64,000 bases of DNA, from contig NZ_SIHJ01000005.1 of the NCBI RefSeq assembly GCF_007859765.1, forward strand, positions 186,001 through 250,000, read 5' to 3'. Each line of letters opens with the position of its first letter. Position 1 is the first letter of the stretch. The notes below the pieces were generated by a model. The model saw only the letters and a program-made list of their open reading frames with translations, made no database searches and had not been told where the DNA came from. This DNA comes from Posidoniimonas corsicana. Lineage in GTDB: Bacteria > Planctomycetota > Planctomycetia > Pirellulales > Lacipirellulaceae. Positions 15,873-29,438 of the stretch are shown one piece after another. The position numbers and the translations under genes were made by a program.

Positions 15873-16006
15873 GGAAGGAACTCGCGTCGCGGTCCCGCAC
15901 GATCCGCGTGCCGGACGCCGCGCGGATTTGACGTCCCCTGCGGCCGAGTGTACTTTTGTATATCGTCCCAGGCCGCCCGTCGGGCGGCCGGCTCACCCCG
16001 ACCAGC

Positions 16007-16586: not shown

Positions 16587-17231
16587 TCACGCCGCGGCCA
16601 GCGTCCGCGTGACCTGCAGCACCGGCAGCGCGTCCAGGCGGCCGTCGTCGAGGATCCGGTCGACGCGGTACTCGGCGCCGTCGGCCGCAACCACCTTCTC
16701 GCACAGCTCCAGGTCCTCCACTTCCGAGAGCGACACGGTGAACGTGCTGGCGGTGTCGGTCGGCGCGGCGTTGTAGTCGTGGTCGACCGCCAGCGGCTGG
16801 ATGTGCGCCAGCGCGTCCTCGGCGATCGTGCTCCAGCCGGTGACCTCCGGCCCCGACCCCAGGTCCTCCCACACCGGTCTCTGCAGGTCGACCAGCACGC
16901 CGACCTGCTCGCTCACCTCGATCCAGCGCGCGGCGCAGCGGCACCGCCTGCCCGGCCCCCGGCGTTCGACCTTCAGCACCACGTGCACCTCGCCGCCGTG
17001 CAGGATGTCGTCGCCCACGGAGGGCGGGTCCTGGCCGCTGGGCATCGGCAGGTCCCACAGCAGGTCGTCGATCAGCACGCCGCCGCCGGGCGGCTGGTCG
17101 TCGCTGGTCGACCGGTCGACCAGCCGCGCCGCATCGATCTCGACCGTGCCGCCGGCGGCCCGCGCGAGCGTCACGCCCTCCAGCCCGTCGATCACCTCCA
17201 CAAAATCGTCGTCCGCGTTGAGCAGAACCAT
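16587..17231 (-). CDS. Phage-module protein, possible head-completion/connector role
   Basis: A 214-residue protein beginning MVLLNADDDFVEVIDGLEGVTL. The start at 17231 overlaps the stop of the 72-aa gene as TGATG, implying coupled translation. The sequence is rich in Asp, Val and beta-prone stretches, has no membrane segment, and ends DALPVLQVTRTLAAA. The position at the end of a capsid cluster, after a small connector-like protein, is where head-tail adaptor or stopper proteins normally sit. I cannot confirm this from motifs. It is the last gene of the minus-strand block; no tail genes follow. Confidence 0.7.
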   Translation of the reverse strand: MVLLNADDDFVEVIDGLEGVTLARAAGGTVEIDAARLVDRSTSDDQPPGGGVLIDDLLWDLPMPSGQDPPSVGDDILHGGEVHVVLKVERRGPGRRCRCAARWIEVSEQVGVLVDLQRPVWEDLGSGPEVTGWSTIAEDALAHIQPLAVDHDYNAAPTDTASTFTVSLSEVEDLELCEKVVAADGAEYRVDRILDDGRLDALPVLQVTRTLAAA

Positions 17232-17449
17232 CAGCCGCCCCCTCCCCGTGATTGAACCTCGAATACCTCGCACTCAAACAGTCTGCGGTCGCACCAGTCG
17301 ACCGTCCGCTGCAGCGACTCGACGTACTCCTGCCAGTGCACCCGCTGCCCGTCGAGCCAGTAGGTCGGCTTGGGGTCGCCGCGGATCTGTTCAATCTGGT
17401 CGAGCGTCTGCGCGCGGATCGCTTGCAGCTGGGTGGTGTCCGTTGGCAT
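17231..17449 (-). CDS. Small phage-module protein (72 aa), gpW-like in size and position
   Basis: Residues such as DPKPTYWLDGQRVHWQEYVESL followed by TVDWCDRRLFECEVFEV form a pattern I associate with small head-completion or adaptor-associated proteins in siphophage clusters. The protein is helical and charged with a Gly tail. It ends in the TGATG overlap with the next gene and begins just after a CCCTCCCC hairpin spacer downstream of the capsid gene. The exact role is not proven. Confidence 0.7.
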   Translation of the reverse strand: MPTDTTQLQAIRAQTLDQIEQIRGDPKPTYWLDGQRVHWQEYVESLQRTVDWCDRRLFECEVFEVQSRGGGG

Positions 17450-17478
17450 GGATGAACGATCCTTTCAGTGAGAAGACC

Positions 17479-17546
17479 CCCTTCCCTAGCCCCTCCCCCG
17501 ACGCGGGGGAGGGGGACCTCAGTTCCCTCCCCCTTTGGGGGAGGGA
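17479..17546. repeat. CCCTCCCC palindrome pair after the capsid gene
   Basis: Two adjoining hairpins, CCCCTCCCCCGACGCGGGGGAGGGG and TCCCTCCCCCTTTGGGGGAGGGA, fill most of the 105-base spacer between the capsid gene and the 72-aa gene. They belong to the dispersed family described in the findings. Confidence 0.75.
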
Positions 17547-17554
17547 AAAACGAG

Positions 17555-18709
17555 CTACCCGGTACACTTCACCACGTACCGCGGGTTCAGCACCGCCGCG
17601 GCGCCCCGTTCGCTCGCCTTGAAGCGGAGCACGATGTCGTTGGTGAAGTCGGCCTCGCTGCCGATCGGCGCCTGCGTGACGGTGATCGGCCAGTTCTCCA
17701 TGTAGGCGAACGCGCGGCGCAGGTCGCCCAGGAACCACCACTTCTGCGCGTCCTCGGCGGTCTCGCCCGCGGCGATCACGCGGCGGTACGCCAGCCGGCT
17801 CTCCTTCACCGTGTAGTTGCCCAGCGGGTTGGCGGCGGTGGTGGTGGTCTGGCTGGCGGCGTCCGTGTACGCGATCGACGACCCGTTGAACACGCGGTGC
17901 GCCGCGTGCCGCGCGGCCGGCATCACCACCACGTGCGTGGCCCGCAGCAGCACCGGCTCGCCCGTGGCCGGGTCGAGCATGTCGGCGAACAGCTGCTCCG
18001 CCTTGTCGACGTTCTTCCAATCCTCGAGCGCGTTGCCCGCCAGCACGTTCTTCCACTCACTCGACGACTGGTACGTGTCATGAGCGACGCCGTTGTGCTT
18101 GTAGTTGTTGGTCACGCCGATCAGCAGATCCAGCAGCCGTTTCTCCTTGTTCAGGCCCAGGATCTCGCCCACCTCGGCCGCCCGGGCGAGCACCAGGTTG
18201 GTGCGGTCGAAGAACACGGCCTCCTTGGTTACCGGCACGATGAAGCCCCGCTTGGAGGTCGACGGCGTTTCGATGTAGTCCTCGCCGAAGCCGAGGCTGG
18301 GGTACGGCATGCCCGGTTCGACCTCGTCGATCGTTTCCGCGACGCGGTTCACGCCGGGGATCTTCTCGCCGTCGAGCCGCGTGGGGATGCTGTCGACCAG
18401 CTTCGAGACGACAAACGCCTCCTGCTGATAGGCCTCCAGCACCTTCGACCGCACGACCTGCCCGGCCACGTTCTGGAACGCGGTTACGTCGACGCCGTCG
18501 CCGGCCTCCTGCAGGCTGACGCCGTCGGCCCGCGGGTCGAGCAGCCGCACCCACTCCCGCCCGTCGGGCACGAGCGCCTCGGCCAGGTCCCGCAGGCTGA
18601 AGTCCTCCGGGCGGAGCTGCCGCTCCTCGAGCGCGGTGGTCAGGTGCTCGACGGTCTGCCGCGCGCCGTCGAGTTCGTAGCGTCGTTTGAGTTCGCGGTA
18701 GTTCAGCAT
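17555..18709 (-). CDS. HK97-fold major capsid protein
   Basis: A 384-residue shell protein. It starts MLNYRELKRRYELDG, with an N-terminal helical arm. A region around AYQQEAFVVSKLVDSIPTRLDGEKIPGVNRV leads into the P-domain-like part, followed by DYIETPSTSKRGFIVPVTKEAVFFDRTNLVLARAAEVGE. This is the typical pattern of capsid proteins in which the E-loop and spine helix follow, and it ends with strands FTNDIVLRFKASERGAAAVLNPRYVV. The position directly after cement and protease genes supports the call. No separate scaffold gene is seen; the protease gene's helical C-terminus may supply it. Confidence 0.85.
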   Translation of the reverse strand: MLNYRELKRRYELDGARQTVEHLTTALEERQLRPEDFSLRDLAEALVPDGREWVRLLDPRADGVSLQEAGDGVDVTAFQNVAGQVVRSKVLEAYQQEAFVVSKLVDSIPTRLDGEKIPGVNRVAETIDEVEPGMPYPSLGFGEDYIETPSTSKRGFIVPVTKEAVFFDRTNLVLARAAEVGEILGLNKEKRLLDLLIGVTNNYKHNGVAHDTYQSSSEWKNVLAGNALEDWKNVDKAEQLFADMLDPATGEPVLLRATHVVVMPAARHAAHRVFNGSSIAYTDAASQTTTTAANPLGNYTVKESRLAYRRVIAAGETAEDAQKWWFLGDLRRAFAYMENWPITVTQAPIGSEADFTNDIVLRFKASERGAAAVLNPRYVVKCTG

Positions 18710-18744
18710 GGTTGGTCCTTGGATGGTTGTAGGTTGGTCGCTGC

Positions 18745-18774
18745 TACCCCCCCTCCCCCACAGGGGGAGGGAGT
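18745..18774. repeat. CCCTCCCC hairpin between cement and capsid genes
   Basis: CCCCCTCCCCCACAGGGGGAGGG forms a hairpin directly downstream of the cement-protein stop. A GGATGGTTGTAGGTTGG run precedes it. Confidence 0.65.
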
Positions 18775-18776
18775 TC

Positions 18777-19250
18777 CTATGCCACGGCCTGCACGCCGCC
18801 GCGGGCGATGCTGCTCACCAGGTCGACGAGCACGCGGCTGGCGGCGTCGGGCGCCCTGGCGGCGCAGCGGCCGATGGCCGAGCTGACGCCGCCCACAGCG
18901 GCGACCTTCTGGTCCTCCAGCGCGTCGCCGGCGGCGTTCTCCGCAGCGCCGATCAGGTCGCCGACCTCGAAGGTGGCGGCGTCGCACTCGAACTCGAAGA
19001 CGCCGGTCGTCGCGACGCGGATCGGCTTGGCGTCGCCCGCGGCGCTCTGCTGCATCGCCACGCCGGCGAACACGCTGTGGAAGGACTGCTGGTTCAATGA
19101 CGCCGAGCCCTGGTCGAACAGGTCGCCCGCCGGCCGGGCGTCGTCGGTCTCGAGGTAGAGGAGGTCGCCGATCTCGATCTCGGTGGCCGCGTCAACCGCC
19201 ATCACCACCGGGTTGGTTGCGCCGTAGCGCCATCGCATCGTGTTCGCCAT
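18777..19250 (-). CDS. Head decoration (cement)-like protein
   Basis: A 157-residue beta-rich protein, MANTMRWRYGATNPVVMAVD..., followed by EIEIGDLLYLETDDARPAGDL and FAGVAMQQSAAGDAKPIRVATTGVFEF. The arrangement is that of capsid cement or DUF2190-like proteins: a value is set, a status is given, and a flat beta barrel follows. It lies between the protease and capsid genes, the conserved position for such proteins. It should bind the outer surface of the capsid lattice. Confidence 0.75.
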   Translation of the reverse strand: MANTMRWRYGATNPVVMAVDAATEIEIGDLLYLETDDARPAGDLFDQGSASLNQQSFHSVFAGVAMQQSAAGDAKPIRVATTGVFEFECDAATFEVGDLIGAAENAAGDALEDQKVAAVGGVSSAIGRCAARAPDAASRVLVDLVSSIARGGVQAVA

Positions 19251-19299
19251 CTGCTGTAGCTCCTAGAGAGAACGGAATGGGAAGTTCGGTGCGCCGCGG

Positions 19300-20160
19300 T
19301 TACCGTGGCGCACCGATCGCGCGGACGAAGTCGCTGGTGCTGGCCGGCCGCCCCGACGGGTCGCCCAGCAGCTGCTGCTCGCGGGCGAGCGTCATCGGGC
19401 CGAAGCTGTCGCGGGCCGCCTCCTGCAGCAGGCGGGCACGGTCGACGACCAGCCGCTCGAGCACGGCCGGATCGGCCGTCTCCATCAACGCGTGCAGGAA
19501 CGCCGCGCCGACGGCCGACTCGCCATCGCCGGTGGGACGCAGGCCGTGCTCGGCCAGCAGCCGGTAGACCCGGGCCTGCTGCTCCACCTGCCGCAGGGCG
19601 TCGGTGAGCGACCGCACCTGCTCCTCCAGGCCCGGTTGGTCGGCCTCGGCGCTGCGCTGGTGCTCGAACAGGCCGTCGGTTGTGGCCGGGTCGGCCACCA
19701 GGTCGACGCTCCGCACGTGCTCGATCGCCTCGACGATGGTCTGGCCCTCGCGCTGCGCGGTGCGGGCCAGCACGTTGTGCGACAGGCCGACGTTCTGCGG
19801 CGCGTGCTCCGCGTCCCACACAAGCTGCTCAGCCAGCGGGTGCTTCGGGTTGAAGTGCAGCGCCGCGAACAGCCCCTCGCCGGGTCGCAGCTCGACGCCG
19901 CGGATCACGCCCAACCGGTCGCGGTAGTCGCGCGGGGCGAGCGGGTCGCCCGCCGGGTGGTTCACGTTGACGCGGGCGCCCTCGTACAGCGGCGCCGCCC
20001 GCCGCAGCGCGTGCTCCTGGTACCGGCGCTGGTTGCGGGACGTCAGCCCCAGCAGCTTCACGCCCCGCAGCACGCTCGCCGCGCGGTCCAGCCGCAGCGT
20101 CTGGTCGCGGGAGTCGACGTACTCCTGAAGGGCTCGTGGTTTCTCGTTGACTTCGGGCAT
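19300..20160 (-). CDS. Prohead protease with helical (scaffold-like) C-terminus
   Basis: A 286-residue protein. The N-terminal half has KLLGLTSRNQRRYQEHAL (a GxxSxNxRxY motif), GARVNVNHPAGDP with a candidate catalytic His, and NVGLSHNVLART with a candidate catalytic Ser. These match the G..S.N.R.Y / H / S order of herpesvirus-like phage maturation proteases. Residues from about 170 to the end are mostly helical and rich in Gln/Glu/Arg, as in protease-scaffold fusions. The start chosen is ATG at 20160 (MPEVNEKP); ATG at 20181 is possible. A terminator-like hairpin lies just upstream. Confidence 0.82.
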   Translation of the reverse strand: MPEVNEKPRALQEYVDSRDQTLRLDRAASVLRGVKLLGLTSRNQRRYQEHALRRAAPLYEGARVNVNHPAGDPLAPRDYRDRLGVIRGVELRPGEGLFAALHFNPKHPLAEQLVWDAEHAPQNVGLSHNVLARTAQREGQTIVEAIEHVRSVDLVADPATTDGLFEHQRSAEADQPGLEEQVRSLTDALRQVEQQARVYRLLAEHGLRPTGDGESAVGAAFLHALMETADPAVLERLVVDRARLLQEAARDSFGPMTLAREQQLLGDPSGRPASTSDFVRAIGAPR

Positions 20161-20181
20161 GGCTCTCCTCGCTCGGGGCAC

Positions 20182-20224
20182 AAAAAAAGCCCACCGAGAC
20201 GCCGCGCGGGCGCCAGGGTGGGCT
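20182..20224 (-). terminator. Rho-independent terminator-like hairpin, minus strand
   Basis: On the minus strand AGCCCACC (20224-20217) pairs with GGTGGGCT (20195-20188) and is followed by seven T residues. It lies between the 62-aa gene and the protease gene of the same transcript, so it would cut the head operon in two unless read through. A second site of the same design is at 29592-29646. Confidence 0.75.
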
Positions 20225-20272
20225 CGAAGGGGATGCCTGACGGGTGTCAGGCTCGTTCGATACCGTCGATTG

Positions 20273-20369
20273 CTCCCCTCCCCTTTGGGGGAGGGTTAGG
20301 GTGGGGGTGCAGTGGGGCAGACCTTGCCGGTGCTCACCCCCACCCCGGCCTCCCCCACAGGGGAGGGAG
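20273..20369. repeat. Long CCCTCCCC palindromic element (about 97 bases)
   Basis: Terminal blocks CCCCTCCCCTTTGGGGGAGGG and CCTCCCCCACAGGGGAGGGAG enclose a core of GGGTGGGGGTGC...CACCCCCACCCC. The core pairs with itself, so the whole can fold into one long branched hairpin. It is nearly identical to 26372-26471 and similar to 27401-27489. No coding frame is evident. Confidence 0.85.
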
Positions 20370-20381
20370 TTACTTGGCCTC

Positions 20382-20570
20382 CTAAACCTTGATCTGTTTT
20401 TCCGTGGTGACCTTCACCTGCTGAACATGGCCGTCCTGCAGGGTGACCGTCATGGTCGCCGCGCCGAAGTAGCCCGGCCGGGCAACCTTGGTCAGCATCT
20501 CGGCGAGCACCGCCTGTGCATGGCTCGCCTTTTCCGCCCGCGTTCGTGTTGTCGTGTGGGTTGTTCTCAT
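20382..20570 (-). CDS. Small phage-module protein, 62 aa
   Basis: The protein has a Thr/Arg-rich start (MRTTHTTTRTRAEKASHAQ), then a helix and a short beta hairpin AATMTVTLQDGHVQQVKVTTEKQIKV. The latter resembles the small DUF2292-like strand pattern VxVxDGxVxQIxxxEK. It is located after the portal gene in transcription order, behind a 231-base spacer. A terminator follows at 20182-20224. No function can be stated. Confidence 0.6.
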   Translation of the reverse strand: MRTTHTTTRTRAEKASHAQAVLAEMLTKVARPGYFGAATMTVTLQDGHVQQVKVTTEKQIKV

Positions 20571-20801
20571 GCCCTAAAGATCTTCGATCAGGTGGCCGGT
20601 TTCTACAAAGAAATGGGGCGAATCAATATGTTGTGCAGGGATAGTTTTAGGGCACAAGTTTGTTGCTCGGAACGGCACTGGAGTGCGATTCCTAGCGCGG
20701 GATTCTGGGGGTTCGACTCCACACTGGGGCGACAGGCGAAGCCTGTCTCGCCACCAACCACCAACCACCAACCACCACCTGCCACCAGCCACCAACCACT
20801 A
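20571..20801. other. Lower-GC spacer with a dispersed motif, no gene seen
   Basis: This 231-base stretch between the portal gene and the 62-aa gene is richer in AT than the surrounding module. It contains GGTGGCCGGTTTCTACAAAGAA (20591-20612), a dispersed motif also found at 29723 and, inverted, at 32586. It ends (20732-20800) in a GACAGGCGAAGCCTGTC hairpin plus CCAACCACCAACCACC runs. The frames that cross it are not convincing as genes. The middle (20640-20730) could encode an RNA or be remnant DNA. Confidence 0.4.
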
Positions 20802-20806
20802 CTACC
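20752..20806. repeat. CCACCAACCACC run with TGTCTCGCC arm
   Basis: Tandem ACCAACC units follow a GGCGAAGCCTGTCTCGCC palindrome. The same combination (GGTTGGTGGT run plus a GGCGAGC...GCCTCGCC hairpin) is found at 22296-22352, 26291-26345 and 27340-27395. All copies are in spacers of the phage-like block. Confidence 0.6.
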
Positions 20807-22178
20807 CGCGCTTCGCGTGCATCGCCAGGTTCATCTGCTCTTGGTCATAGTCCAGGCCGAGGCGGCGGCTCCAGGTTTGGGGGGAGAGCACGCCGACCGC
20901 GTGGGCGATCTTATTGACGTTGGCTTCCTTGAGCGGGTCGCGCACCTCGAGCGACGGCGGCGTGACCTGCACCTCGATCAGCTCCCGCACGTTGCGCGGC
21001 AGCCGGCCTGCTTGGGCGGCGTTGTCGATCACCCGCCACATCACCTCACAGTCGTCCTGCACCAGGGTCGCTTGCAGCCGCTGGAACATCCGCACCGCGG
21101 GGCCCTCGGCCACCATGGTCGACGCGTAGCTGGCGTTGGAGGCGTCGCTCGTGAACATGAACTCCGGCATCACCAGCCGCGCGGCGATCGCCCGTAGCTC
21201 CGCCTGCAACACCGCCACGAAGCGGGACGCGTCGATGCCGGTGGCGGGGAACTCGTACTCCAGCCCGGCCGGCGCGTCGAGGATGGCGCCCGGGCCGTAC
21301 TGCGTGACCCGCTGGGTGCGGCCCTGGGAGTCGACGGTGGTTTGGGCGGCGGTCTCATCGGCGAAACGCTCGACGCCCGCCCGCGTTCCGGTGCGGTGCC
21401 GGCGGATCAGCGCGATGGCGGACTGCACCTCGGCCACGACGCTCATGTTCCTGAGCAGCCGCTCCGCGCGGCGGAGGTTGCTCCGCACCGCGGCGAACAG
21501 CGGCAGGCCACGCCGCACGTTGGCGTCCACGTTCGCCTTGCGGTGCTGCACCTGGTTGGCCTGCACAAAGCGGCCGTCGACGTAGTAGCCCTGCACCCGC
21601 TCGACGTCGGCTGGGTCGGTCACCACGCCGAACCGCGCCCGCGGGTCGCGGGCGGCCCGCTCCGGCGCTGCGACCTGGTCAGGCTCGATAAAGCGCACGT
21701 GCGTCTGGCCGCCGGCGGTGAAGAACCGCAGGAAGGCCTCGCCGTCGCGGTCCAGGCGGCGGACGATCTCCTGCTGGCGGCTCTGCCAGCGGTTCTGGTG
21801 GCGGAACTCGTCGATCACCGCCTGCACCCGCCCGGCGAGCTCGTCCGACGCGTGCGTCCCCTTGCGTGGCGTGGCGAGGTACACGTGCCCGGCGCCGACC
21901 AGGTAGTTCACGCGGTTCTCGTGGCCGTTGATGGCGAACTCGTTGCCGATCGCCAGCCGCCGGCACTCCTCCCGCAGCCGCGACAGCCCCAACTCGTCGA
22001 GCGGGCCATCGGCCCGCGACCGGCCGGCAGCCGCGAGCGGCAGCCACCACTCCCCACCGTCGCCGGCGTAGGCGTCGCGGGGGTCGACAAAGTCGTCCCA
22101 CAGGCTGTCGCACGCCTCGCTGAGGCGCTGGCGAAGCCTGTTGATGGTGGGTTCGACATCGGGGAAAACTTGGGACAT
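20802..22178 (-). CDS. Phage portal protein
   Basis: A 458-residue portal, the dodecameric ring at the capsid vertex through which DNA is packed. Motifs fit lambda/HK97-like portals: REECRRLAIGNEFAINGHENRVNYLVG in the N-terminal wing, RQQEIVRRLDRDGEAFLRFF, QVQHRKANVDANVRRGLPLFAAVR (the conserved 'RGxP' segment before the stem), and IAARLVMPEFMFTSDASNASYASTMVAEGPAVRMF. The length is normal. GAAGGAG lies nine bases before the ATG, one of the clearer ribosome sites here. The terminase gene is upstream. Confidence 0.92.
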   Translation of the reverse strand: MSQVFPDVEPTINRLRQRLSEACDSLWDDFVDPRDAYAGDGGEWWLPLAAAGRSRADGPLDELGLSRLREECRRLAIGNEFAINGHENRVNYLVGAGHVYLATPRKGTHASDELAGRVQAVIDEFRHQNRWQSRQQEIVRRLDRDGEAFLRFFTAGGQTHVRFIEPDQVAAPERAARDPRARFGVVTDPADVERVQGYYVDGRFVQANQVQHRKANVDANVRRGLPLFAAVRSNLRRAERLLRNMSVVAEVQSAIALIRRHRTGTRAGVERFADETAAQTTVDSQGRTQRVTQYGPGAILDAPAGLEYEFPATGIDASRFVAVLQAELRAIAARLVMPEFMFTSDASNASYASTMVAEGPAVRMFQRLQATLVQDDCEVMWRVIDNAAQAGRLPRNVRELIEVQVTPPSLEVRDPLKEANVNKIAHAVGVLSPQTWSRRLGLDYDQEQMNLAMHAKRG

Positions 22179-22295
22179 GCTTGGGCTCCTTCAATGAGCG
22201 TGAGTCACTGTCGATCGAACATGCGGCACACAGCGCCGCCAACCGCTGCCCTCCTGTCAGAGGAAAAGGTTAGATAGGCAATCTCGACTTCGGCG

Positions 22296-22341
22296 CGAAC
22301 GGCGAGGCGTAGCTCGCCACCAACCACCAACCACCTACCAC
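22296..22341. repeat. GGCGAGGCGTAGCTCGCC hairpin with CCAACCACC run
   Basis: The element lies immediately downstream of the terminase stop. GGCGAG...CTCGCC arms are followed by CACCAACCACCAACCACCTACC. It is a member of the GGTTGGTGGT family. Confidence 0.6.
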
Positions 22342-23907
22342 CTACCCACCCCGCCAAACTTCCTCCGCTAGGCGCACCGCCATCTCTAATGCGTCGGGGC
22401 CGTCGTCGTGCGTGGCGAGCGGGAAGTCCTGCAGCTGCTCGATCAGCAACCGAGCGCCGGGGGAGTTGCGGCGGAAGCGGAGCCGGCGTTGCGACAGGTA
22501 CGGCCCCAGCCGGCGGATCCGCATCGCCTTGCTGGTGTGGTTGTGGATCTCGGCGATCGAGCGGCCCAACTGGCCGCGGCGGCGCAGCTCGGTCTGGAAC
22601 TCGGCCGCCAAGAGCTGCTGCCACTGGTTCGACTCGACGCCGAACGCCTGCGGGCGGAACGCCTGGAGGTGCGCGGCGCCGTCGGCCACCATCTGCGCGG
22701 TGGGGCGGCGCTGGAGGTCGGCGTCGATGTGCAGCACCCCGCCCTCCCCCACACCCAGCAGCACGTAGGCGGAGTAGTCGCCGTGCCGCGCGTCGGCGCC
22801 CTTGCTCGGGTCGAGCGACAACACGCGCAGCCGCAGGCCGGCGGGCCACTCGTCGAACCAGGCGTGCGGGCCGAAGTAGTCGGCGGGCCACTCGCACCGC
22901 TCGGGGTCGATCGGCCGGCCCTGCTTCTCGCGCTCGAACGCGGTCTCGCCGCCCTCGACGCGCTGCCGCATCAGCGTCAGCAGGTCTTCCTCCTCGGGCC
23001 ACAGCACGCGGGCGCCGTGGTCCATCTCGGCTTGGCGCTCGCGGTAGAACGCCTCGGCCTGTTGCGGTGCGTCGTCGACCGGCAGGCAGTACAGTCGGCG
23101 CCACTCGTCCCACAGCGGCTGGTTGGTCGGCCACGCCTGAACCGCAGCGAACACCCGCGAAGCCCAGCCGGGCGAGGTGTGCAGCCGCGGGGCGAGCGCG
23201 TCGCGGTGCAGCGCCGTGGCCAAGTTGAGCACGTTGGTCCGCGCGTCGCCCGCCTTGAGCAGCGTGCCGAAGAACCACTGGCGGCTGCTCTCGCGGAGCC
23301 GGGCGGAGTCGATGTGCTGGTCGTTCTCGATGTCGTCGCAAACGATCAGGCTCGGACGCGCGGCGCCCATCCTGCGTCCGCGGAGCCGCTGACCGGCGCC
23401 GAACGCCTCGATCACAACATCGTTGCTCAGCCGGATGGACGACGCCCGCCACCACCGCGGCGTCCGTGCGGCCGCCGGGTAGGCCGCCCGCAGCCGCGGG
23501 TTGTCGGCCAACTCTTGCTTGAGGTTGTGCAGGTGGTTCTTGGCCTGGCTTTCGGTGGCGGACAGGATCCAGATGTACCGTTCGCCGCCGGTGACCGCGG
23601 CCCGCAGCACGGCGGCCAGCGTGCCCACGGTGCTCTTGGCGCCACCGCGGGGGCCGATCAGGTTGACCTTCACGCCCCGCGTGTGGCGCATCGCGTCGAC
23701 CTGCTGGCCTAGCCAGCGGTGCATGGCCGACGGCGGCTTGCTGAAGTGCCGCGGCAGGTAGCTCCGACCCCAGGCAATCAAGTCCTCGGGCTCTTTCTCC
23801 TCGGCCGCGTCGGACACCGAGATCGCGCGCGATACCTCGTGCAGCGCCCGGGCGACCCGCTCGGTCGACCAATCGGCCGGAAGGATGCTCGATCCGTGCA
23901 TGGTCAT
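22342..23907 (-). CDS. Terminase large subunit
   Basis: A 521-residue packaging motor: an N-terminal ATPase with Walker A GPRGGAKST at residues 85-93 and Walker B LIVCDDIEND near 187-196. A C-terminal RNase H-like nuclease follows, with the acids in VLSLDPSKGADARHGDYSAY and DDGPDALEMAV. It pumps DNA into the prohead through the portal and cuts it into units. The start is ATG at 23907, overlapping the small-subunit stop as ATGA; a much longer frame reaching 24450 is a shadow. Both catalytic halves look intact. Confidence 0.92.
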   Translation of the reverse strand: MTMHGSSILPADWSTERVARALHEVSRAISVSDAAEEKEPEDLIAWGRSYLPRHFSKPPSAMHRWLGQQVDAMRHTRGVKVNLIGPRGGAKSTVGTLAAVLRAAVTGGERYIWILSATESQAKNHLHNLKQELADNPRLRAAYPAAARTPRWWRASSIRLSNDVVIEAFGAGQRLRGRRMGAARPSLIVCDDIENDQHIDSARLRESSRQWFFGTLLKAGDARTNVLNLATALHRDALAPRLHTSPGWASRVFAAVQAWPTNQPLWDEWRRLYCLPVDDAPQQAEAFYRERQAEMDHGARVLWPEEEDLLTLMRQRVEGGETAFEREKQGRPIDPERCEWPADYFGPHAWFDEWPAGLRLRVLSLDPSKGADARHGDYSAYVLLGVGEGGVLHIDADLQRRPTAQMVADGAAHLQAFRPQAFGVESNQWQQLLAAEFQTELRRRGQLGRSIAEIHNHTSKAMRIRRLGPYLSQRRLRFRRNSPGARLLIEQLQDFPLATHDDGPDALEMAVRLAEEVWRGG

Positions 23908-24344
23908 TGACGCCCCTCCTGCGAGCTCGGCGGGCCGCCCGCCAGTTCGCCAAGACGCGCCGCCAGCCGCACCCGCTCGGCGTCGCCGGCAACCTCGCGC
24001 TGGATGGCGTCGTTGACGGCGGCCAGCAGCTTCGTCAGCTCGGGCTTGGAGAGCGCGTCGGTCGCGCGGCGGAGGTAGCCCTCCGGCGCGGCGTTCTCCA
24101 GCCACCAGATGGCGGCCCGGTAGTTCTTCTCGTCCTGGATCGCCCGCATCACGCACCGCATGTGCGCCAGCTCGATGGCGGCCTCGGAGCGGCGGAGTTC
24201 TCCGGCGAACGCCGGGTCGGCGGCGGCCGCGGCCGTGATCTGCTGCGGCGTGCAGCCGACGTACCGCGCCGCGGTCGCGCGGCGACAGCCCACCGCGGCC
24301 AGGCGGCTGAGATCTTGTTTCTGTGTTTCGGTGAGGTTGTGCAT
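23904..24344 (-). CDS. Terminase small-subunit-like DNA-binding protein
   Basis: A 146-residue helical protein. The N-terminal segment KQDLSRLAAVGCRRATAARYVGCTPQQITAAAA is a helix-turn-helix of the terminase-small-subunit/homeodomain-like kind. The C-terminal half is helical (LTKLLAAVNDAIQREVAGDAERVRLAARLGEL) and would suit oligomerisation. It should recognise the packaging site and load the large subunit, whose start it overlaps by four bases. The start at 24344 removes a 177-residue upstream extension that lies in the acetyltransferase gene's DNA. Confidence 0.78.
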   Translation of the reverse strand: MHNLTETQKQDLSRLAAVGCRRATAARYVGCTPQQITAAAAADPAFAGELRRSEAAIELAHMRCVMRAIQDEKNYRAAIWWLENAAPEGYLRRATDALSKPELTKLLAAVNDAIQREVAGDAERVRLAARLGELAGGPPSSQEGRQ

Positions 24345-24365
24345 AGGTACTTGCTTTGGTTGGCT

Positions 24366-24417
24366 GTCCCGTGGCTGGCGCCGTGGGCTGATTAGGCCGC
24401 GGCGCCAGCCACGGGAC
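24366..24417. repeat. Perfect 17-base inverted repeat
   Basis: GTCCCGTGGCTGGCGCC (24366-24382) is exactly complementary to GGCGCCAGCCACGGGAC (24401-24417), with an 18-base loop. The right arm encodes the last residues of the acetyltransferase domain, so the hairpin could end transcription of that gene or be an inserted palindrome. Confidence 0.75.
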
Positions 24418-24901
24418 CGGTGTACTCGAATGAAACCACCATCCGGCCACTGCAGTCGCGGTAATTGGGGTGCAGGTGGGTCTTGGGGGTGCGTTGGCGA
24501 TTCCGCTTCACTCCTGACGTCCGCCAACGCGTCGACCGCTGGCAGTGGCCGATCAGCGCCGGGTGGCTGGTGGTGACGCTGATGCGGAAGCCCTCCTCGC
24601 GGTGCAGCTGCGCCACCGCCTCGACCACGCGCGAGCCGATTCCAATCCCCTGGTAGTCCGGCAGCGTAACAATGCGAGTGAACCGCCGCCGGCCCTTCTG
24701 CCCAATCACCGGCAGCGTCGCACAGAACGCCACGGGCGCGCCGTCCCAGGTCGCCAGGTAGCAGCGGGCCTGCGGCGCCAGCGAGCCGGTCAGATAGTGA
24801 TGGCGCGCAAACAGCCGCCACGCCTCCAGCCGGCAGCGATGGATCTCCAGTCGGATGGCTGGTCGTCGAAGACACCCCCTTGCCAACCGCCGGTCGGCCA
24901 T
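24392..24901 (-). CDS. GNAT acetyltransferase domain, separated from its ATPase by a frameshift
   Basis: A 169-residue fragment or gene starting at an internal ATG. It contains the GNAT core: RIVTLPDYQGIGIGSRVVEAV (motif A, acetyl-CoA pyrophosphate loop QGIGIG), ARCYLATWDGAPVAFCATLP and GFRISVTTSHPALI. COG2401 proteins carry an ABC-type ATPase followed by exactly this kind of domain. In-frame sequence upstream of the ATG (WLTPDWTLD) continues the ATPase ORF 24922-25521 in another frame, so the two are best read as one gene broken at 24929-24936. Whether the GNAT part is translated alone is unknown. Confidence 0.75.
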   Translation of the reverse strand: MADRRLARGCLRRPAIRLEIHRCRLEAWRLFARHHYLTGSLAPQARCYLATWDGAPVAFCATLPVIGQKGRRRFTRIVTLPDYQGIGIGSRVVEAVAQLHREEGFRISVTTSHPALIGHCQRSTRWRTSGVKRNRQRTPKTHLHPNYRDCSGRMVVSFEYTGPVAGAAA

Positions 24902-24921
24902 GTCGAGCGTCCAGTCGGGCG

Positions 24922-25521
24922 TCAGCCAGCGCGCGCCACGTCGTAGTGGCAGGTCACGGCGACAAACCGCTTGTTGACCCGCCCACCGCGGATCGCCTTG
25001 GCCACCGCCGCCGAGCAGACCCGCGCCACATTCCGGTCGACGACGCTGGTGAACTCGTCGAAAACGACGAGTTGGCTGTTGGCTCTAGGCTGTTGGCCTG
25101 CGGAGTTGCCTCCCGCCATCGCCAACGCGCGGGCCAGATCGCAGCGGAACTGCTCGCCGCGCGAGAGAACCCTGTACGGTTTGATCCAGGATGGTGGGGA
25201 GCTGAACCCGACAGCGGTCAGCAGCCCGACCGTGTCGCGGACGCCGAGCGGCGCGAACGCGTCGACCACTGCGCGATCGGCGGGCCAGTCGGCGGACTCG
25301 AAGAGCTGATCCCCATACGCCCTCCTTGCGACGGTCGTCTTGCCGCTGCCCGAGGGGCCGACGATCAGGCCGATCCGCCAGTCCTCGTCGAGGTCGGGCA
25401 GGTCGACTGTAAACCGCTCGCTCGCCCGGTCGGCCAGCGGCACGTCGAACAGGCCGGCGGCCTGCTGCACGCGGAACGAGTCGTGCACGGGGCACTCGAC
25501 TACAGTGTCAACACGCGGCAT
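24922..25521 (-). CDS. ABC-type ATPase domain of a COG2401-like protein (frameshifted)
   Basis: A 199-residue ATPase: Walker A GPSGSGKTT at 55-63, signature LSRGEQFR near 118, Walker B QLVVFDEFTSVVDR near 150, H-loop TCHYD at the end. There is no membrane domain, so it is not a transporter. The frame stops at 24922 straight after TCHYDVARAG. Removing one GC from the (GC)4 tract at 24929-24936 would join it in frame to WLTPDWTLDMADRR of the acetyltransferase. Between signature and Walker B, residues GNSAGQQPRANSQ are encoded by a GCTGTTGGC repeat. It overlaps the ParB-like gene's end by 22 bases. Confidence 0.8.
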   Translation of the reverse strand: MPRVDTVVECPVHDSFRVQQAAGLFDVPLADRASERFTVDLPDLDEDWRIGLIVGPSGSGKTTVARRAYGDQLFESADWPADRAVVDAFAPLGVRDTVGLLTAVGFSSPPSWIKPYRVLSRGEQFRCDLARALAMAGGNSAGQQPRANSQLVVFDEFTSVVDRNVARVCSAAVAKAIRGGRVNKRFVAVTCHYDVARAG

Positions 25522-26057
25522 TTGCGCCCCTCCTCTCGCATAGCTTGGTAAACCTGTTGCTGCTCGGCCTCGTCGGCGCAGTCGACCACCACTTGGTAGG
25601 TCTCGGGGATGTCGAGGTCCGGCAGGTTGGCCGGCACGTCGACGCCCGTTGGGTTGGCCTGCTCGGCGAGTACGTCGAACAGTGATTGCAGCTCGTCGCT
25701 CTGTGTGTCGACGTTCTCCAGCAGCGAAGCCAGCGCCCCGCGGTCGACGCCCGCCAACGCGGCGAGTGGGTCGTGCGTGGCGAGCAGCTTCTGGGCCTCG
25801 GCTTCGTCCAGGTCGACCACCAGCACCGGCACCACGGCGTCGGGCGTCAGCTCGGCCCGCAGGTGGCCGTCGATCAGCTGCAGCGACCCGTCGGGGAGCT
25901 CACGGGCCACCAGCGCGTCGGCGTAGCCGAGCTCGCCGAGCGCCGCGGCCATGGCCACCCGCTGCCGCTCGGGGTGCGTGCGCCAATTGAGCGGATGAGG
26001 AAGGAGCTCGCCCGCACGCACGCGGCGCAGGTCCTTGATGCAATCTCGCACGTTCAT
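25500..26057 (-). CDS. ParB N-terminal-domain (Spo0J-like) protein
   Basis: A 185-residue protein with a ParB/sulfiredoxin-type nuclease-like domain: LLPHPLNWRTHPERQRVAM (HPxNxRxH start box), then LVARELPDGSLQLIDGHLRAEL (the GHxR box) and VPVLVVDLDEAEAQKLLATHD. ParB-domain proteins of this kind are common beside phage terminase genes and can act in DNA modification or packaging. There is no C-terminal dimer or HTH domain, so it is not a chromosome-partition ParB. The start at 26057 overlaps the previous stop as ATGA. Confidence 0.85.
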   Translation of the reverse strand: MNVRDCIKDLRRVRAGELLPHPLNWRTHPERQRVAMAAALGELGYADALVARELPDGSLQLIDGHLRAELTPDAVVPVLVVDLDEAEAQKLLATHDPLAALAGVDRGALASLLENVDTQSDELQSLFDVLAEQANPTGVDVPANLPDLDIPETYQVVVDCADEAEQQQVYQAMREEGRKCRVLTL

Positions 26058-26290
26058 TGTTCGTCCTTTCGTAGGAGCAGCCGCACGTCCTGCTGCAGGC
26101 GTTTTACCTGCGCGTCGAGGTGGCCGAGTTCGGCGTCGATCCGCGCCTGCCGCGCCCGCACCGCGGCCGCGGCGTCGTGCACCTTGTAGAGCGTCGCGCC
26201 GACGAGCATCAGCACGGTCAGCGCCAGCGAGCAGAGCCCGCCCCAATCGGCGGGCGCCAGCCGTACACGGTCGTAGGAGATGCGGGTCAT
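26054..26290 (-). CDS. Small membrane/coiled-coil protein of the phage module
   Basis: A 78-residue protein with one transmembrane segment at about residues 17-36 (GGLCSLALTVLMLVGATLY). A charged coiled-coil tail (VRARQARIDAELGHLDAQVKRLQQDVRLL) follows. This shape occurs in Rz-like spanins and in some holins, but neither can be proven. It ends in an ATGA overlap with the ParB-like gene and so is translated with it. Confidence 0.65.
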   Translation of the reverse strand: MTRISYDRVRLAPADWGGLCSLALTVLMLVGATLYKVHDAAAAVRARQARIDAELGHLDAQVKRLQQDVRLLLRKDEQ

Positions 26291-26345
26291 TTGGTGGTTG
26301 GTGGCTAGTGGTTGGTGGTTGGTGGCGAGCCACGCCTCGCCGGTC
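26291..26345. repeat. TTGGTGG run with CGAGCCACGCCTCG hairpin
   Basis: GGTTGGTGGCTAGTGGTTGGTGGTTGGTGG is followed by CGAGCCACGCCTCG. It immediately precedes a long CCCTCCCC palindrome at 26372-26471. Confidence 0.6.
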
Positions 26346-26371
26346 GCGCCGGGGGGTTTGGGGTGGCATCA

Positions 26372-26471
26372 ATCCCCTCCCCCTCTGGGGGAGGGTTAGG
26401 GTGGGGGTGCAGTGGGGCAGACCCTGCCGCTGTTCACCCCCACCCCGGCCCTCCCCCAAAGGGGGAGGGAG
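26372..26471. repeat. Long CCCTCCCC palindromic element (about 100 bases)
   Basis: Near-identical twin of 20273-20369: the core GTTAGGGTGGGGGTGCAGTGGGGCAGACC is shared letter for letter, and terminal hairpins flank it. It fills the spacer after a 277-aa phage-module gene. Confidence 0.85.
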
Positions 26472-26481
26472 ACCTAGGCGC

Positions 26482-27315
26482 CTAAGGCGCCGGCGGGATG
26501 ATCGGCGCGGCGGTCGACGCACCACCTGCGTTGGTAGTGCCCGGCATGACGCCGTCGCTCCGAATGCCGCTGTAGAAGTTCGTCAGGTTGGTCGGCCACG
26601 GGCTGATGTCGGCCGGCAGCTCGGTGACCGGGATTCCTTCGGCCAGCACCTCCAGGCGGTCCTCCGTGAACACGCGGTCCAGCCGCGGCACGGTGTCGAC
26701 CATCTCGGTGGCGGTAAAGAACGCCGACGGGTTGTAGGCCGCCAGATCCGCGTCGGTGAGCGCGAAGCCGTCGGCGATGGCCGCCTCGCGGGTCTTGCCG
26801 AACAGCTCGATCGCCATGTTTGTGTAGACCCGCTTCACGTACTGGCCGACCGTGCCGGCGAACGCGGTGGAGATCTCCATCTCCTTGCGGTTCTCGGTGT
26901 GCTGCATCGCCTCCGAAAGCGACACCAGGATCAGCCCCGCCCAGCGTCGCAGGAACGGGTTGCGGACCTTGAAGTACGGCACCGGGTACACGCGGAACAC
27001 CTCGCCGGCCGGCCGCGCGTGGGTCACCTCCATATTGTCCACGCCCGACGGCACCGCCCTACCGGCCAGCACGTTGGCCGCGCGGAGGTACAGCTTGTGC
27101 ACCCGCTTGCAGGTGTTGATCGACGGCGGGATCCGCAGGTCGGCGTCCTCGTGGTGCATGATGTGGAACAGGTTGCGTCCCACCAGCTCGACCCAGTCGA
27201 GCACCTGCGGGTTGAGGCTCCCGACGTCGTTCGACCAGTTGGGCACCGCGTACCCCGCTTCGCCGAACACGCCGACGTTGTACCAGAGGACCGCGTCAGT
27301 GTTGGTGATTGGCAT
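26482..27315 (-). CDS. Phage-module protein of unknown function, 277 aa
   Basis: It starts MPITNTDAVLWYNVGVFGEAGYAVPNW and has a mixed alpha/beta, aromatic-rich sequence without membrane segments. A Pro/Ala/Thr tail ends IIPPAP. A segment TENRKEMEISTAFAGTVGQYVKRVYTNMAIELFG looks helical. The size and solubility would suit a virion or internal head protein, but I recognise no family. AAGGA precedes the ATG at 27315. The longer frame to 27399 translates a GGTTGGTGG repeat and is rejected. Confidence 0.65.
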   Translation of the reverse strand: MPITNTDAVLWYNVGVFGEAGYAVPNWSNDVGSLNPQVLDWVELVGRNLFHIMHHEDADLRIPPSINTCKRVHKLYLRAANVLAGRAVPSGVDNMEVTHARPAGEVFRVYPVPYFKVRNPFLRRWAGLILVSLSEAMQHTENRKEMEISTAFAGTVGQYVKRVYTNMAIELFGKTREAAIADGFALTDADLAAYNPSAFFTATEMVDTVPRLDRVFTEDRLEVLAEGIPVTELPADISPWPTNLTNFYSGIRSDGVMPGTTNAGGASTAAPIIPPAP

Positions 27316-27339
27316 TGGTAGGTTCCTTGTTGGTGTGTG

Positions 27340-27395
27340 GGGAGTGGTGGGTGGTGGGTGGTTGGTAGTAGCCGGCGAGCTACGCCTCGGCGGAA
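27340..27395. repeat. GGTGGGTGGTTGG run with CGAGCTACGCCTCG hairpin
   Basis: TGGTGGGTGGTGGGTGGTTGG leads into GCCGGCGAGCTACGCCTCGGCGG. It directly precedes the third long palindrome. Confidence 0.6.
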
Positions 27396-27400
27396 TCAAA

Positions 27401-27489
27401 GCCCCTCCCCCTGTGGGGTAGGGTTAGGGTGGGGGCGCCCCGTGTACCCGCTTCCCCCTACCCCGGCCCTCCCCCAACGGGGGAGGGAG
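27401..27489. repeat. Long CCCTCCCC palindromic element, diverged copy
   Basis: The terminal blocks CCCCTCCCCCTGTGGGGTAGGG and CCTCCCCCAACGGGGGAGGGAG are conserved. The core differs from the other two long copies (GGGCGCCCCGTGTACCCGCTTCCCCC). The copies therefore belong to a family and are not a single recent duplication. Confidence 0.8.
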
Positions 27490-27497
27490 TATTCGCC

Positions 27498-27686
27498 TCA
27501 CTCCGCGTTCATCTGCTGCTTGATCAACGAATCAAGCGTGGTCAAGACCTCCACCGCCCCGGGAAACTTGCGGGCGACCTGTTCGCTGGCCCACTGGTGG
27601 GCTTTCGCGAAGCGGTCGTTCTCGTAGGGAACGTAGTGCGTCTCACGCAGCACGTTCGGGGGCGGTGGAGGGGTATCGACGGCCAC
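27498..27686 (-). CDS. Small phage-module protein, 62 aa
   Basis: The protein runs from MAVDTPPPPPNVL to a helical end (GAVEVLTTLDSLIKQQMNAE). Its first 44 bases overlap the 3' end of the protease gene, in another frame. No family is recognised. The overlap and the sensible amphipathic C-terminus support coding. Confidence 0.6.
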   Translation of the reverse strand: MAVDTPPPPPNVLRETHYVPYENDRFAKAHQWASEQVARKFPGAVEVLTTLDSLIKQQMNAE

Positions 27687-28836
27687 GGGCCGGCTCTGCT
27701 GCTGGCTCCACTCGTAGCGCTGCTGATCGGTCTCCTGCTTCCGGCTGAAACCCGCCGGCCCGCGGACCTCCCGGGCCGCGGCGGTGGGAGATGCGGCGAC
27801 GCAACAGCAGCTGCGCGGCGAACACCGCCACGCCCAACGGACCTCCCACGCCTAGCGCCGCCGCCAGCGTGCCCAACGCGCCGGCGATCCACTCGCCTTG
27901 TTCGCTGGACGCCGGCGTCGAGCCGCCCGGCGAACGGCGGTTTAGCTCGTCCAGATCGCTGAGCGTTGCGTAGCGGTCGAGTTCGCTCCGCTGCACGCAG
28001 TCGCCCGAGCATTCACACTGGCAGTCGCACTTTGGACTCGACGCCGGCTTGGCGGCGATGTGAGGCTCGCTTGCAACCGGCGGAACAGTCGACGCAGGTT
28101 CGTCTCGCGGCAGCTTCTCGAGCAGCTTTGTCAGCGGCGGCCCGGCAGTGGCGTAGGTGGTCTGCCCGCGGGCGCCCCACACGACGCCGACCACCAGGCC
28201 GCGTTCGTTCAGCACCGGGCCGCCGCTGTCGCCGGGGCGGACCGCGCCGTGCATGACCAGGCTCGGGTAGCTGGCGCCCTGCGGCGTGGAGCGGCCGGCG
28301 AGCTCGCCCCGCACCGCGCGGAGCCGGCCGTCGCCGCCCAGGCCGATCGCGACCAGCGTACGGCTGTCGGCGTACTCGGTCACCCTGACGGGACGCGTCC
28401 GCGGGACCGTTGTGGCGAGCACCGCCAGGTCGTGCGCGTCGTCGGTGGCGAACACCTTGGCCGGCGTCGCCGCTTCGTCGGGGAACTGGACCGAGAGGTC
28501 GCCGACGCCGTCGTCCAGCAGGTGCCGGCAGGTCAGCACGTACGCCCTGCCGGCCTCGACGTGCACCAGCGTGCCGCTGCCAATCGCGTCGCCGCCGCCC
28601 AATCGGTTCCGCACGCGGCACACAGCAGCGGTGATGTTGGGGCCGACCGGCACAGCCCGCCACCGCGGCTGCGGCGCTGGCGCGGACTGCCAACCGCCCG
28701 GTGGCCGGCACTGGCCACCCGGGCACTGGCCGCGGCAGGCGGCGACCATCGCCAGCGTGGCCGCGATTGAGCAGGCCGCCAGCAGGCAGGTCAGCGCGAG
28801 CCGCCGCTGCCGTTGTCGTTGGTAGTTGCGCGTCAC
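27643..28836 (-). CDS. Trypsin-like serine protease, membrane-anchored, in the phage module
   Basis: A 397-residue protein with an N-terminal hydrophobic anchor or signal (residues 12-32). A chymotrypsin-fold domain follows with His105 (LTCRHLLDDG), Asp136 (DDAHDLAVLAT) and Ser204 (RPGDSGGPVLN), then a Cys-rich stretch (KCDCQCECSGDC). A second hydrophobic segment near 310-340 (GALGTLAAALGVGGPLGVAVF) and a basic tail complete it. All three catalytic residues are present. The start is GTG at 28836 overlapping the preceding stop as GTGA; the larger frame to 29661 is a shadow of the next gene. A phage head operon is an unusual place for such a protease. Confidence 0.8.
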   Translation of the reverse strand: MTRNYQRQRQRRLALTCLLAACSIAATLAMVAACRGQCPGGQCRPPGGWQSAPAPQPRWRAVPVGPNITAAVCRVRNRLGGGDAIGSGTLVHVEAGRAYVLTCRHLLDDGVGDLSVQFPDEAATPAKVFATDDAHDLAVLATTVPRTRPVRVTEYADSRTLVAIGLGGDGRLRAVRGELAGRSTPQGASYPSLVMHGAVRPGDSGGPVLNERGLVVGVVWGARGQTTYATAGPPLTKLLEKLPRDEPASTVPPVASEPHIAAKPASSPKCDCQCECSGDCVQRSELDRYATLSDLDELNRRSPGGSTPASSEQGEWIAGALGTLAAALGVGGPLGVAVFAAQLLLRRRISHRRGPGGPRAGGFQPEAGDRSAALRVEPAAEPARGRRYPSTAPERAA

Positions 28837-29438
28837 TTGCCATCTCCGCTGAGGGTGAATCGGTACTCGTAGAACGGGCTGCGGGCGAGGTCGGCCGGCT
28901 CGGTCAGGCGGTCGGCCAGGTGCGGAACCGGGTCGACGCCGCCCGCTACGCGGTCGGCCAGCGCGCACGCCTGGCTGCAGAACGGCGGCCGGCTGGCGGC
29001 GGCCTGGTCCTCGGTCTCGGGCCGCACGAACAGCCGCACCAGCGGCAGGTGCAGCAGCGCCGCCCGCAGCACCGACCAGTAGCCGTAGTCGCACCCGGCC
29101 AGCAGCCGCATGCAGCGGGCCGCGGCGGCGCGGTCGTAGTCGGTCCAGCGGCCGCGCGGGTTGACGGCGAACACGTCGATGCGTGCCGGGCAGCGGCGGA
29201 CCTGGCTGGCGAGCGTGACTGCGCGGCCGCCGTGCCACTCGCGGACTTCCACGCAGTACAGGTCGGCGCCCCAGCGGACAGCCTTGGCCGCGTGCGAGTG
29301 TTCGCCCCGCCCCGCAGCCGCGATCAGCCCACGCCGCCGGAACAGCAGGAGGTCGCCATCGCGGATGTGCGGCGCAGCCTCGGCCAGGGTTCTCATCACG
29401 CGTTTCACGGTTTGATTCCTGTTTGAGTTGATGTCCAT
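28833..29438 (-). CDS. Permuted NlpC/P60 (YiiX-like) hydrolase candidate
   Basis: A 201-residue protein with RDGDLLLFRRRG, then GRGEHSHAAKAVRWGADLY (candidate His49) and a distant PPFCSQACALADR (candidate Cys154). A His before the Cys with a GDLLL strand is the order seen in circularly permuted papain-fold enzymes of the YiiX/LRAT type. These hydrolyse amide or ester bonds in peptidoglycan or lipids. The start at ATG 29438 (MDINSNRNQT) was preferred to 29654, because the extension translates an inverted repeat. First gene of the block; a cell-wall role is inferred only. Confidence 0.65.
   Translation of the reverse strand: MDINSNRNQTVKRVMRTLAEAAPHIRDGDLLLFRRRGLIAAAGRGEHSHAAKAVRWGADLYCVEVREWHGGRAVTLASQVRRCPARIDVFAVNPRGRWTDYDRAAAARCMRLLAGCDYGYWSVLRAALLHLPLVRLFVRPETEDQAAASRPPFCSQACALADRVAGGVDPVPHLADRLTEPADLARSPFYEYRFTLSGDGK

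Follow-up and report, generated by a model that had tools for sequence, protein, structure and literature searches.

Organisation of the head-gene block

The 64,000-nucleotide stretch of Posidoniimonas corsicana DNA analysed in this study (hereafter the window; contig NZ_SIHJ01000005.1, positions 186,001 to 250,000) carries a block of phage head and DNA-packaging genes, those for terminase, portal and HK97-type capsid being intact. The block consists of 17 genes (g1 to g17), all on the minus strand, running from 29654 down to 16587. The original prediction, made from the sequence alone, had proposed thirteen to fourteen genes in one direction with an end at 29438; the common direction was correct, while both the number of genes and the extent had been underestimated. 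Start/stop overlaps of 1-4 bases, which it had reported for many genes, occur at some junctions only (17231; 26054-26057; 23904-23907). One overlap measures 22 bases, and five intergenic gaps of 163-231 bases are present, some of them containing repeats. The GC content of the block lies inside the range of its surroundings.

Family matches agreed with the earlier assignment of the terminase small subunit (g9, 23904..24344; phrog_4102, 1.5e-4), the terminase large subunit (TerL; g10, 22342..23907; phrog_38, 7.6e-69, and Terminase_6C, 4.7e-5), the portal protein (g11, 20802..22178; PF05136, 1.2e-20) and the HK97-type major capsid protein (g15, 17555..18709; PF25209, 1.6e-14). The capsid protein is 60-88% identical in 12 aligned relatives, and the TerL residues which we take to be those of the Walker/ATPase and nuclease motifs are invariant across 13 aligned sequences. 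A search of the P. corsicana genome for PF03354 gave no match. The genes announced as prohead protease and cement protein are present, and their names derive from position. The probable head maturation protease (g13, 19300..20160), presumed to be one from its place and a motif, matches a PHROG of unknown function (phrog_29592, 9.5e-11), and the cement-like protein ahead of the capsid gene (g14, 18777..19238) has a conserved place and no family match.

As predicted, two connector-like genes follow the capsid gene and the block then stops at a gene on the opposite strand. The first, g16 (17231..17449; 72 aa), keeps its place beside the capsid gene, in tailed viral contigs too. The second and last gene of the block, g17 (16587..17231), was compared with Phage_attach (E 0.0035), a match that fails the curated cut-off. 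Its structure model (mean pLDDT 89.7) resembles in Foldseek the neck stoppers of Pam3, of SPP1 and of RcGTA, the gene transfer agent (GTA) of Rhodobacter capsulatus (virion chain 6tba_3A). The neck matches have E values of about 1e-3 to 1e-2, the best being about 1e-3 with none below, and target-normalised TM-scores of 0.54-0.73 among the best. As modelled, g17 resembles a neck stopper, or head-closure protein, in its fold.

Three further genes of the block had been left unlisted in the original prediction, namely a ParB-like gene (g6, 25500..26057; phrog_620, 1.6e-9), a P-loop ATPase gene (g7, 24922..25521) and a GNAT acetyltransferase gene (g8, 24392..24901; PF00583, 3.2e-9). The ATPase and GNAT proteins match the two halves of one PHROG, phrog_11143, the former its N-terminal part (1e-48) and the latter its C-terminal part. 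A tRNA-Pro called by ARAGORN inside the ATPase gene (25291-25386, minus strand) is most likely spurious. The block opens with a conserved gene of 201 aa (g1, 28833..29438, open to 29654), whose syntenic homologues are mostly 60-81% identical; no Pfam family scored over the cut-off, and its description as a permuted papain-like amidase is an unconfirmed guess of ours. It is followed by a trypsin-like serine protease (g2, 27643..28749; PF13365, 8.5e-18). Two small proteins of 62 aa each are conserved, g3 (27498..27686) with 33-90% identity in the relatives carrying it and g12 (20382..20570) in relatives likewise. The conserved 277-aa protein g4 (26482..27315) reaches 78-94% identity in 10 of the 12 rows of its alignment, which cover part of the window's family. 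Other genomes yielded no g4, and a gene of another kind (cluster C3) lies near the same place there; the structure model of g4 (mean pLDDT 51) was too poor to be used. The 78-aa product of g5 (26054..26290), with a membrane segment and a coiled coil, is holin-like by look only and matches no family over the cut-off.

Two kinds of GC-rich repeat lie in the gaps of the block. A palindromic one at 17525..17545 recurs six times in block gaps (18751, 20275, 26375, 26449, 27403 and 27467). Palindromic repeats number eight in the window against 0.02 expected by shuffling, and seven of these eight fall in gaps of the module. Repeats of the CCACCAACCACC type behave similarly, nine of their ten window matches lying in module gaps. 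Further repeat positions are 20751-20800, 22317-22342, 26293-26325 and 27350. Elsewhere in the genome, 67 kb of DNA contained not one exact copy of the GC-rich gap repeats, and the idea that they are chromosome-wide repeats was therefore dropped.

Facing the block in the opposite orientation lies a helix-turn-helix (HTH) regulator gene (15956..16579, plus strand; PF13560, 5.5e-8). In an enlarged set of stretches, it adjoins the block in 14 of the 21 genomes that belong to the Lacipirellulaceae, the window's family. Past the HTH gene, ordinary host genes follow, and the other flank holds an alcohol dehydrogenase (ADH) gene, an exo/endonuclease-phosphatase gene (here called C0) and a MoaB-like gene. 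Integrase families were detected neither among ten nearby flanking open reading frames (ORFs) nor among the HTH, FMO and ADH genes adjoining the block, in a search limited to these neighbouring genes and not extended gene by gene through the 64 kb or to a distant integrase in the genome. No exact 14-mer common to both flanks, as an att-like repeat would be, occurs in the window. The earlier observation that neither tail nor integrase genes adjoin the block was thus confirmed, and an ordinary prophage with an adjoining tail could be rejected, given host genes on both sides, no integrase nearby and a presence that is not sporadic.

Distribution and descent with the chromosome

TerL matches were found in 49 of 59 genomes, P. 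corsicana included, as a rule in one close copy; this count includes distant matches (G045, G049, G050) and partial ones (G031, G032). Capsid matches were found in 47 of the 59, likewise mostly as a single close copy, that of G049 being distant. In the window's family (f1) TerL is present in 31 of 36 genomes, and four of the five genomes without it are 58-89% complete. Carriers by name include Botrimarina, Bythopirellula and Aeoliella, the first two of which are placed by the NCBI taxonomy in the Lacipirellulaceae, order Pirellulales. IMG/VR lists the element as a viral contig. The locus sets used below were obtained by a capsid-alignment search and comprise the best 80 of 126 in genome contigs and the best 80 of 140 in viral contigs; single TerL pattern scans gave 0 loci in genome contigs and 3 in viral contigs. 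A check of the closest phages of the terminase, as had been suggested, returned RcapMu, FP_Mushu and JBD26 among the matches listed, at 32-36%. All three are transposable phages with headful packing. One genome contains a second and more distant element (L067, on G047:C1). It carries genes homologous, at 25-52%, to g1, g2 and g4 and to those for both terminase subunits, the portal, the protease, the cement protein and the capsid.

The neighbourhood of the module is shared between families. The synteny comparison with related planctomycetes, which the original prediction had recommended, showed C0, HTH and FMO neighbours common to loci of several families. Of 34 loci, 18 (from families f1, f2, f3 and f12) have C0 at 5.9-9.2 kb ahead of TerL and on its strand, and beyond the block an HTH gene is present in 9 of the 34 and an FMO gene in 6, some stretches ending too early to show either. 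In two genomes the module has come apart. The 5' half in G030 keeps C0, while the 3' half keeps the HTH and FMO genes on another contig; in G023 the halves are inverted and about 11 kb apart. A unit obliged to travel as one piece would hardly survive such a separation. A permuted order within about 17 kb was observed in Planctomycetales bacterium 10988 (G040, L363), the genes from the protease to the tail cassette standing ahead of those from ParB to the terminase.

Phylogenetic trees of 30 genomes were constructed with FastTree from seven concatenated module proteins (2108 columns) and from RpoB (1071 columns, tblastn-derived). Every one of the 12 RpoB splits with support of at least 0.95 is present in the module tree, with zero strong conflicts. 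The two trees have 15 of 27 splits in common, compared with a mean of 0.32 and a maximum of 5 in 1000 label shuffles. Path distances correlate with a Mantel r of 0.86 across the 30 genomes (maximum of 1000 shuffles 0.34) and of 0.84 within the family alone (20 genomes), the module evolving about 2.9 times faster than RpoB. Ratios of nonsynonymous to synonymous substitution (dN/dS) were estimated by the Nei-Gojobori method for seven close pairs, many of the dS values being near saturation. They amount to 0.03-0.23 for the capsid (six pairs), 0.04-0.33 for TerL (seven pairs) and 0.05-0.26 for the portal (six usable pairs). The highest values, up to 0.51-0.56, belong to the stopper, the trypsin-like gene and the small terminase; the stopper, at 0.12-0.54 in four pairs, is among the fastest-changing genes. 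On these sequence comparisons the block is an old one, inherited with the chromosome, and not a passing prophage.

Loss of the tail and of the stopper

In the window's family, represented by 22 loci from 21 genomes, tail queries for anything beyond the stopper gave no tblastn match, a test that can miss unrelated tail genes. The absence of a tail in this family rests also on the lack of room after the block, where the gene that comes next, if visible, has the opposite orientation, be it the HTH gene or a different one. The stopper itself is of full length in 13 of the 21 family genomes and shortened in two (99 aa in G011, 152 aa in G012), and was not found in the remaining six.

The viral contigs L212, L216 and L233, with capsids 48-51% identical to that of the window, carry the same head genes, followed by a terminator, a tube-like gene and a tape measure. 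Many other Pirellulales keep the terminator, a phrog_22694 gene, the tube-like protein and a post-tape-measure gene, but no tape measure; the names tube-like and post-tape-measure are given by homology and position in the viral contigs, not by a family match. Of the distinct loci from genome sources, 43 have 5 kb or more of sequence following the capsid gene; none of these has a tape measure, 28 keep a partial cassette and 15 keep nothing of it. Among 28 loci found exclusively in the viral collection, 7 have a tape measure. In 19 loci the tube-like and post-tape-measure genes lie 0.39-0.81 kb apart; four loci have a spacing of 1.4-2.1 kb and four tailed contigs one of 3.1-3.4 kb, so that most loci have little or no room for a tape measure. 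Judged from gene content, tail loss outside the window's family is not uniform. A set of 61 post-capsid ORFs of the Pirellulales loci includes 13 with LamG-type lectin domains and two for tail completion, while tape measure families are absent from it. Five further ORFs, four of L040 and one of L056, bring the set to 66 and include a Phage_tube_2 gene in L040. In many relatives (L035, L036, L037, L038, L042, L044, L047 and others) the capsid gene and g16 are separated by one to three additional genes, often encoding LamG (concanavalin-like) domains, a position left empty in the window's block.

Tail genes elsewhere in the genome, which the original prediction had advised to look for, were searched by family in 23 genomes, P. 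corsicana included. Neck1 (phrog_5) was found in one (G040) and the sheath (PF04984) in none, while the tape measure family PF10145 matched in 8 at E 0.01, four of them over the cut-off and P. corsicana among them. These three families would not reveal every tail and would, for example, miss short cassettes of other families. A tail supplied from a co-conserved locus elsewhere is disfavoured, the three families not being conserved across the 23 genomes. The P. corsicana match does exist, but it belongs to a separate prophage. This ordinary tailed element (G000:C1, about 262963-292800; L286, L287) encodes a tyrosine integrase (PF00589, 5e-13) and contains the tape measure match and head-like genes of its own. 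It also carries a ParB-like gene and a 489-aa gene that, by eye, resembles a fusion of the module's ATPase and GNAT genes.

Head and tail genes stand together in a conserved, Planctomycetaceae-like cluster in another family of the class (f21; L261-L267, L279, L280); the tape-measure-like gene of this cluster is short (about 235 aa in L266). The cluster occurs mostly as one copy per genome, with few shared flanks. A test of vertical descent based on the capsid of 15 taxa gave 5 of 12 splits in common, one strong conflict and a Mantel correlation of 0.70 against a shuffle maximum of 0.45. These data are suggestive of vertical descent and make the cluster a separate GTA candidate.

Possible role and comparison with known systems

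The shared locus, the RpoB-congruent tree, the purifying selection and the stepwise loss of the tail, all of them seen in the sequences, argue for domestication. The block is, on balance, probably a domesticated, vertically inherited and GTA-like head and DNA-packaging module of Pirellulales, which would derive from siphophage-like tailed viruses and would have lost its tail step by step. Of the three options offered in the original prediction, the domesticated capsid system is the one that gained support; the satellite and the decayed prophage became less attractive, as discussed below.

A more specific proposal is tentative and falls somewhat short of probable. The element may represent a new viriform lineage in Pirellulales, a domesticated siphovirus that shed its tail in steps (first the tape measure, next the tube, later everything beyond the stopper and, in some genomes, the stopper), its tailless heads serving the Lacipirellulaceae host in tail-free gene transfer or DNA export. 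In the broader reading as a domesticated packaging module, the HTH protein would switch the block on, and the ParB-like, ATPase and GNAT proteins would choose the DNA together with the small terminase. The large terminase would then pump chromosomal DNA via the portal into a capsid matured by g13, braced by g14 and, where present, closed by g17. The nearness of TerL to transposable phages with headful packing would suit the packaging of chromosomal DNA. The filled heads would be released by lysis or some other route and, having no injecting tail, would serve either as GTA-like particles or as exported DNA that is protected, and the LamG proteins encoded beside the capsid in several relatives may be head-borne adhesins. 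The uptake gene ComEC, present in 23 of 23 genomes with P. corsicana among them, says little in this respect, since 10 of 14 controls have it as well.

Several observations weigh against a domesticated, vertically inherited module. The six family genomes in which the stopper was not found (G007, G015, G022, G023, G027, G034) have at most 439 bases between g16 and the HTH gene; without a stopper a filled head might lose its DNA, and without a tail no route of DNA injection is known. In G027 the capsid gene is split by an insert of about 12 kb (G027:C1, about 6420578-6432858; L365). The family member G035 lacks the whole block, its MoaB, C0 and FMO genes standing consecutively and the HTH gene being gone as well. 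The module, disrupted in one of these two genomes and lost in the other, is thus not essential. The joint absence in G035 ties the HTH gene to the module. A clean empty site in a close relative had been named in the original prediction, next to an adjoining tail operon and integrase, as the mark of an ordinary prophage; the site exists, and it is read here as a loss, since other members of the genus (code g3) carry the module, G035 itself not being in the tree. Distribution is limited, too. Of 297 genomes sampled from the order, no more than 103 have a TerL match passing E 1e-60, with three f15 genomes among the matches and f5 and f7 appearing only among the genomes listed without a match, a list that leaves out 174 such genomes. 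Of 392 genomes from the phylum, 26 match the capsid profile, mostly through distant homologues in f15 and f21, and 8 of the 49 genomes with TerL contain an additional, less closely related TerL match. One f13 genome (L040) carries a tail-tube gene of another family (Phage_tube_2, PF18906) after the capsid, and live phages would likewise show purifying selection.

Domestication could also have served a purpose other than transfer, the heads remaining in or around the cell as, for instance, an anti-phage decoy or a DNA store. Such a role is unlikely, yet deserves the most attention among the alternatives. The 21 family genomes yielded no tail gene and six of these no stopper either, and the stopper where present changes fast, so that delivery and even sealing seem dispensable; the intact portal, terminase motor and nuclease nevertheless imply that the heads are filled with DNA. 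Slow decay of a very old prophage remnant kept by chance appears less likely again. It would account for the missing tail and replication genes, the ongoing loss of the stopper, the insert in the G027 capsid gene and the empty site of G035. It is at odds with reading frames that stay open across many families and over deep divergence, with motor residues invariant in 13 sequences and with dN/dS values of capsid, portal and terminase far below 1.

The third option of the original prediction, a head-providing satellite that packages itself and borrows the tails of a helper phage, as the capsid-forming phage-inducible chromosomal islands (cf-PICIs) do, is improbable. Its own capsid, terminase, portal and neck without a tail would fit, as would a size near the 14 kb average given for cf-PICIs in the available text of PMC10803314, and a separate tailed prophage with an integrase resides in the same genome. 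Vertical descent, the lack of an integrase among the nearby genes and of att-like repeats, and the separated module halves in G030 and G023 all speak against it. So do the three tail families, which are not co-conserved across the 23 genomes, and the stopper, the docking point of a tail, which six genomes of the family lack. A single hot spot into which related prophages integrated again and again is very improbable. Many such contigs are indeed listed as viral in IMG/VR and related, fully tailed contigs exist, but repeated infection would not yield a module tree that follows RpoB across 30 genomes with no strong conflict, and no integrase was found among the nearby genes.

An earlier description of the element was not found in the open-licence PMC literature on planctomycete, Pirellulales or Lacipirellulaceae phages, GTAs or tailless particles, as far as the accessible parts of these texts extend; an extra contig with phage integrase and terminase genes is mentioned for a Lacipirellulaceae strain (PMC13315336, available part). 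If the domesticated reading is true, a head-only packaging module extends domesticated viruses to another phylum, and its graded series of tail loss raises the question of what cells do with DNA-packaging heads unable to inject.

Encapsulins are HK97-fold nanocompartments with a cargo enzyme and are not known to possess a portal or terminase. The block shares with them an HK97-type shell protein retained by a cellular host and differs in possessing a packaging motor, with both portal and terminase. The integrase and tail genes of an ordinary prophage were not encountered beside the block, nor is its presence sporadic. Like the cf-PICIs, as described in the available part of PMC10803314, the block has its own head and packaging genes, no tail and a similar size. 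Those satellites, however, integrate site-specifically and excise by their own integrase; near the block neither an integrase nor an integration site was found (among nearby genes and as a 14-mer shared by the flanks, respectively), and descent is vertical. The tailed IMG/VR contigs L212, L216 and L233 have the same head-gene order, including g16 and the stopper, but continue into a siphovirus-type tail with a tape measure.

The closest parallel is offered by GTAs, which are defined, in the available part of PMC9662315, as caudovirion-like particles of caudoviricete-derived proteins that contain mostly random host DNA, are endogenised often at several loci, cannot fully package their own genome, are inherited mostly vertically while co-diversifying with their hosts, and deliver DNA to cells. 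The same text records functional GTAs from few groups (some proteobacteria, a spirochete and an archaeon), those described in detail being tailed apart from early reports on Bartonella, where the particles of the B. henselae GTA were first described as tailless or short-tailed. In the block, caudoviricete-derived proteins are indicated by the family matches and the g17 model, endogenisation by the shared chromosomal locus and the separated halves in G030 and G023, and co-diversification by the 12 of 12 strong RpoB splits and the Mantel r of 0.86. The block is nevertheless described here as GTA-like and not as a GTA, and the missing tail in the window's family makes delivery of DNA to other cells doubtful. 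RcGTA differs in its 49 nm tail and in random packaging and delivery demonstrated by experiment, according to the accessible portions of the sources, and no descent from it is claimed for the tailless block. Like RcGTA and other GTAs, the block is caudoviricete-derived, endogenised, co-diversifying with its hosts and in some genomes spread over more than one place, and its stopper model resembles an RcGTA virion chain.

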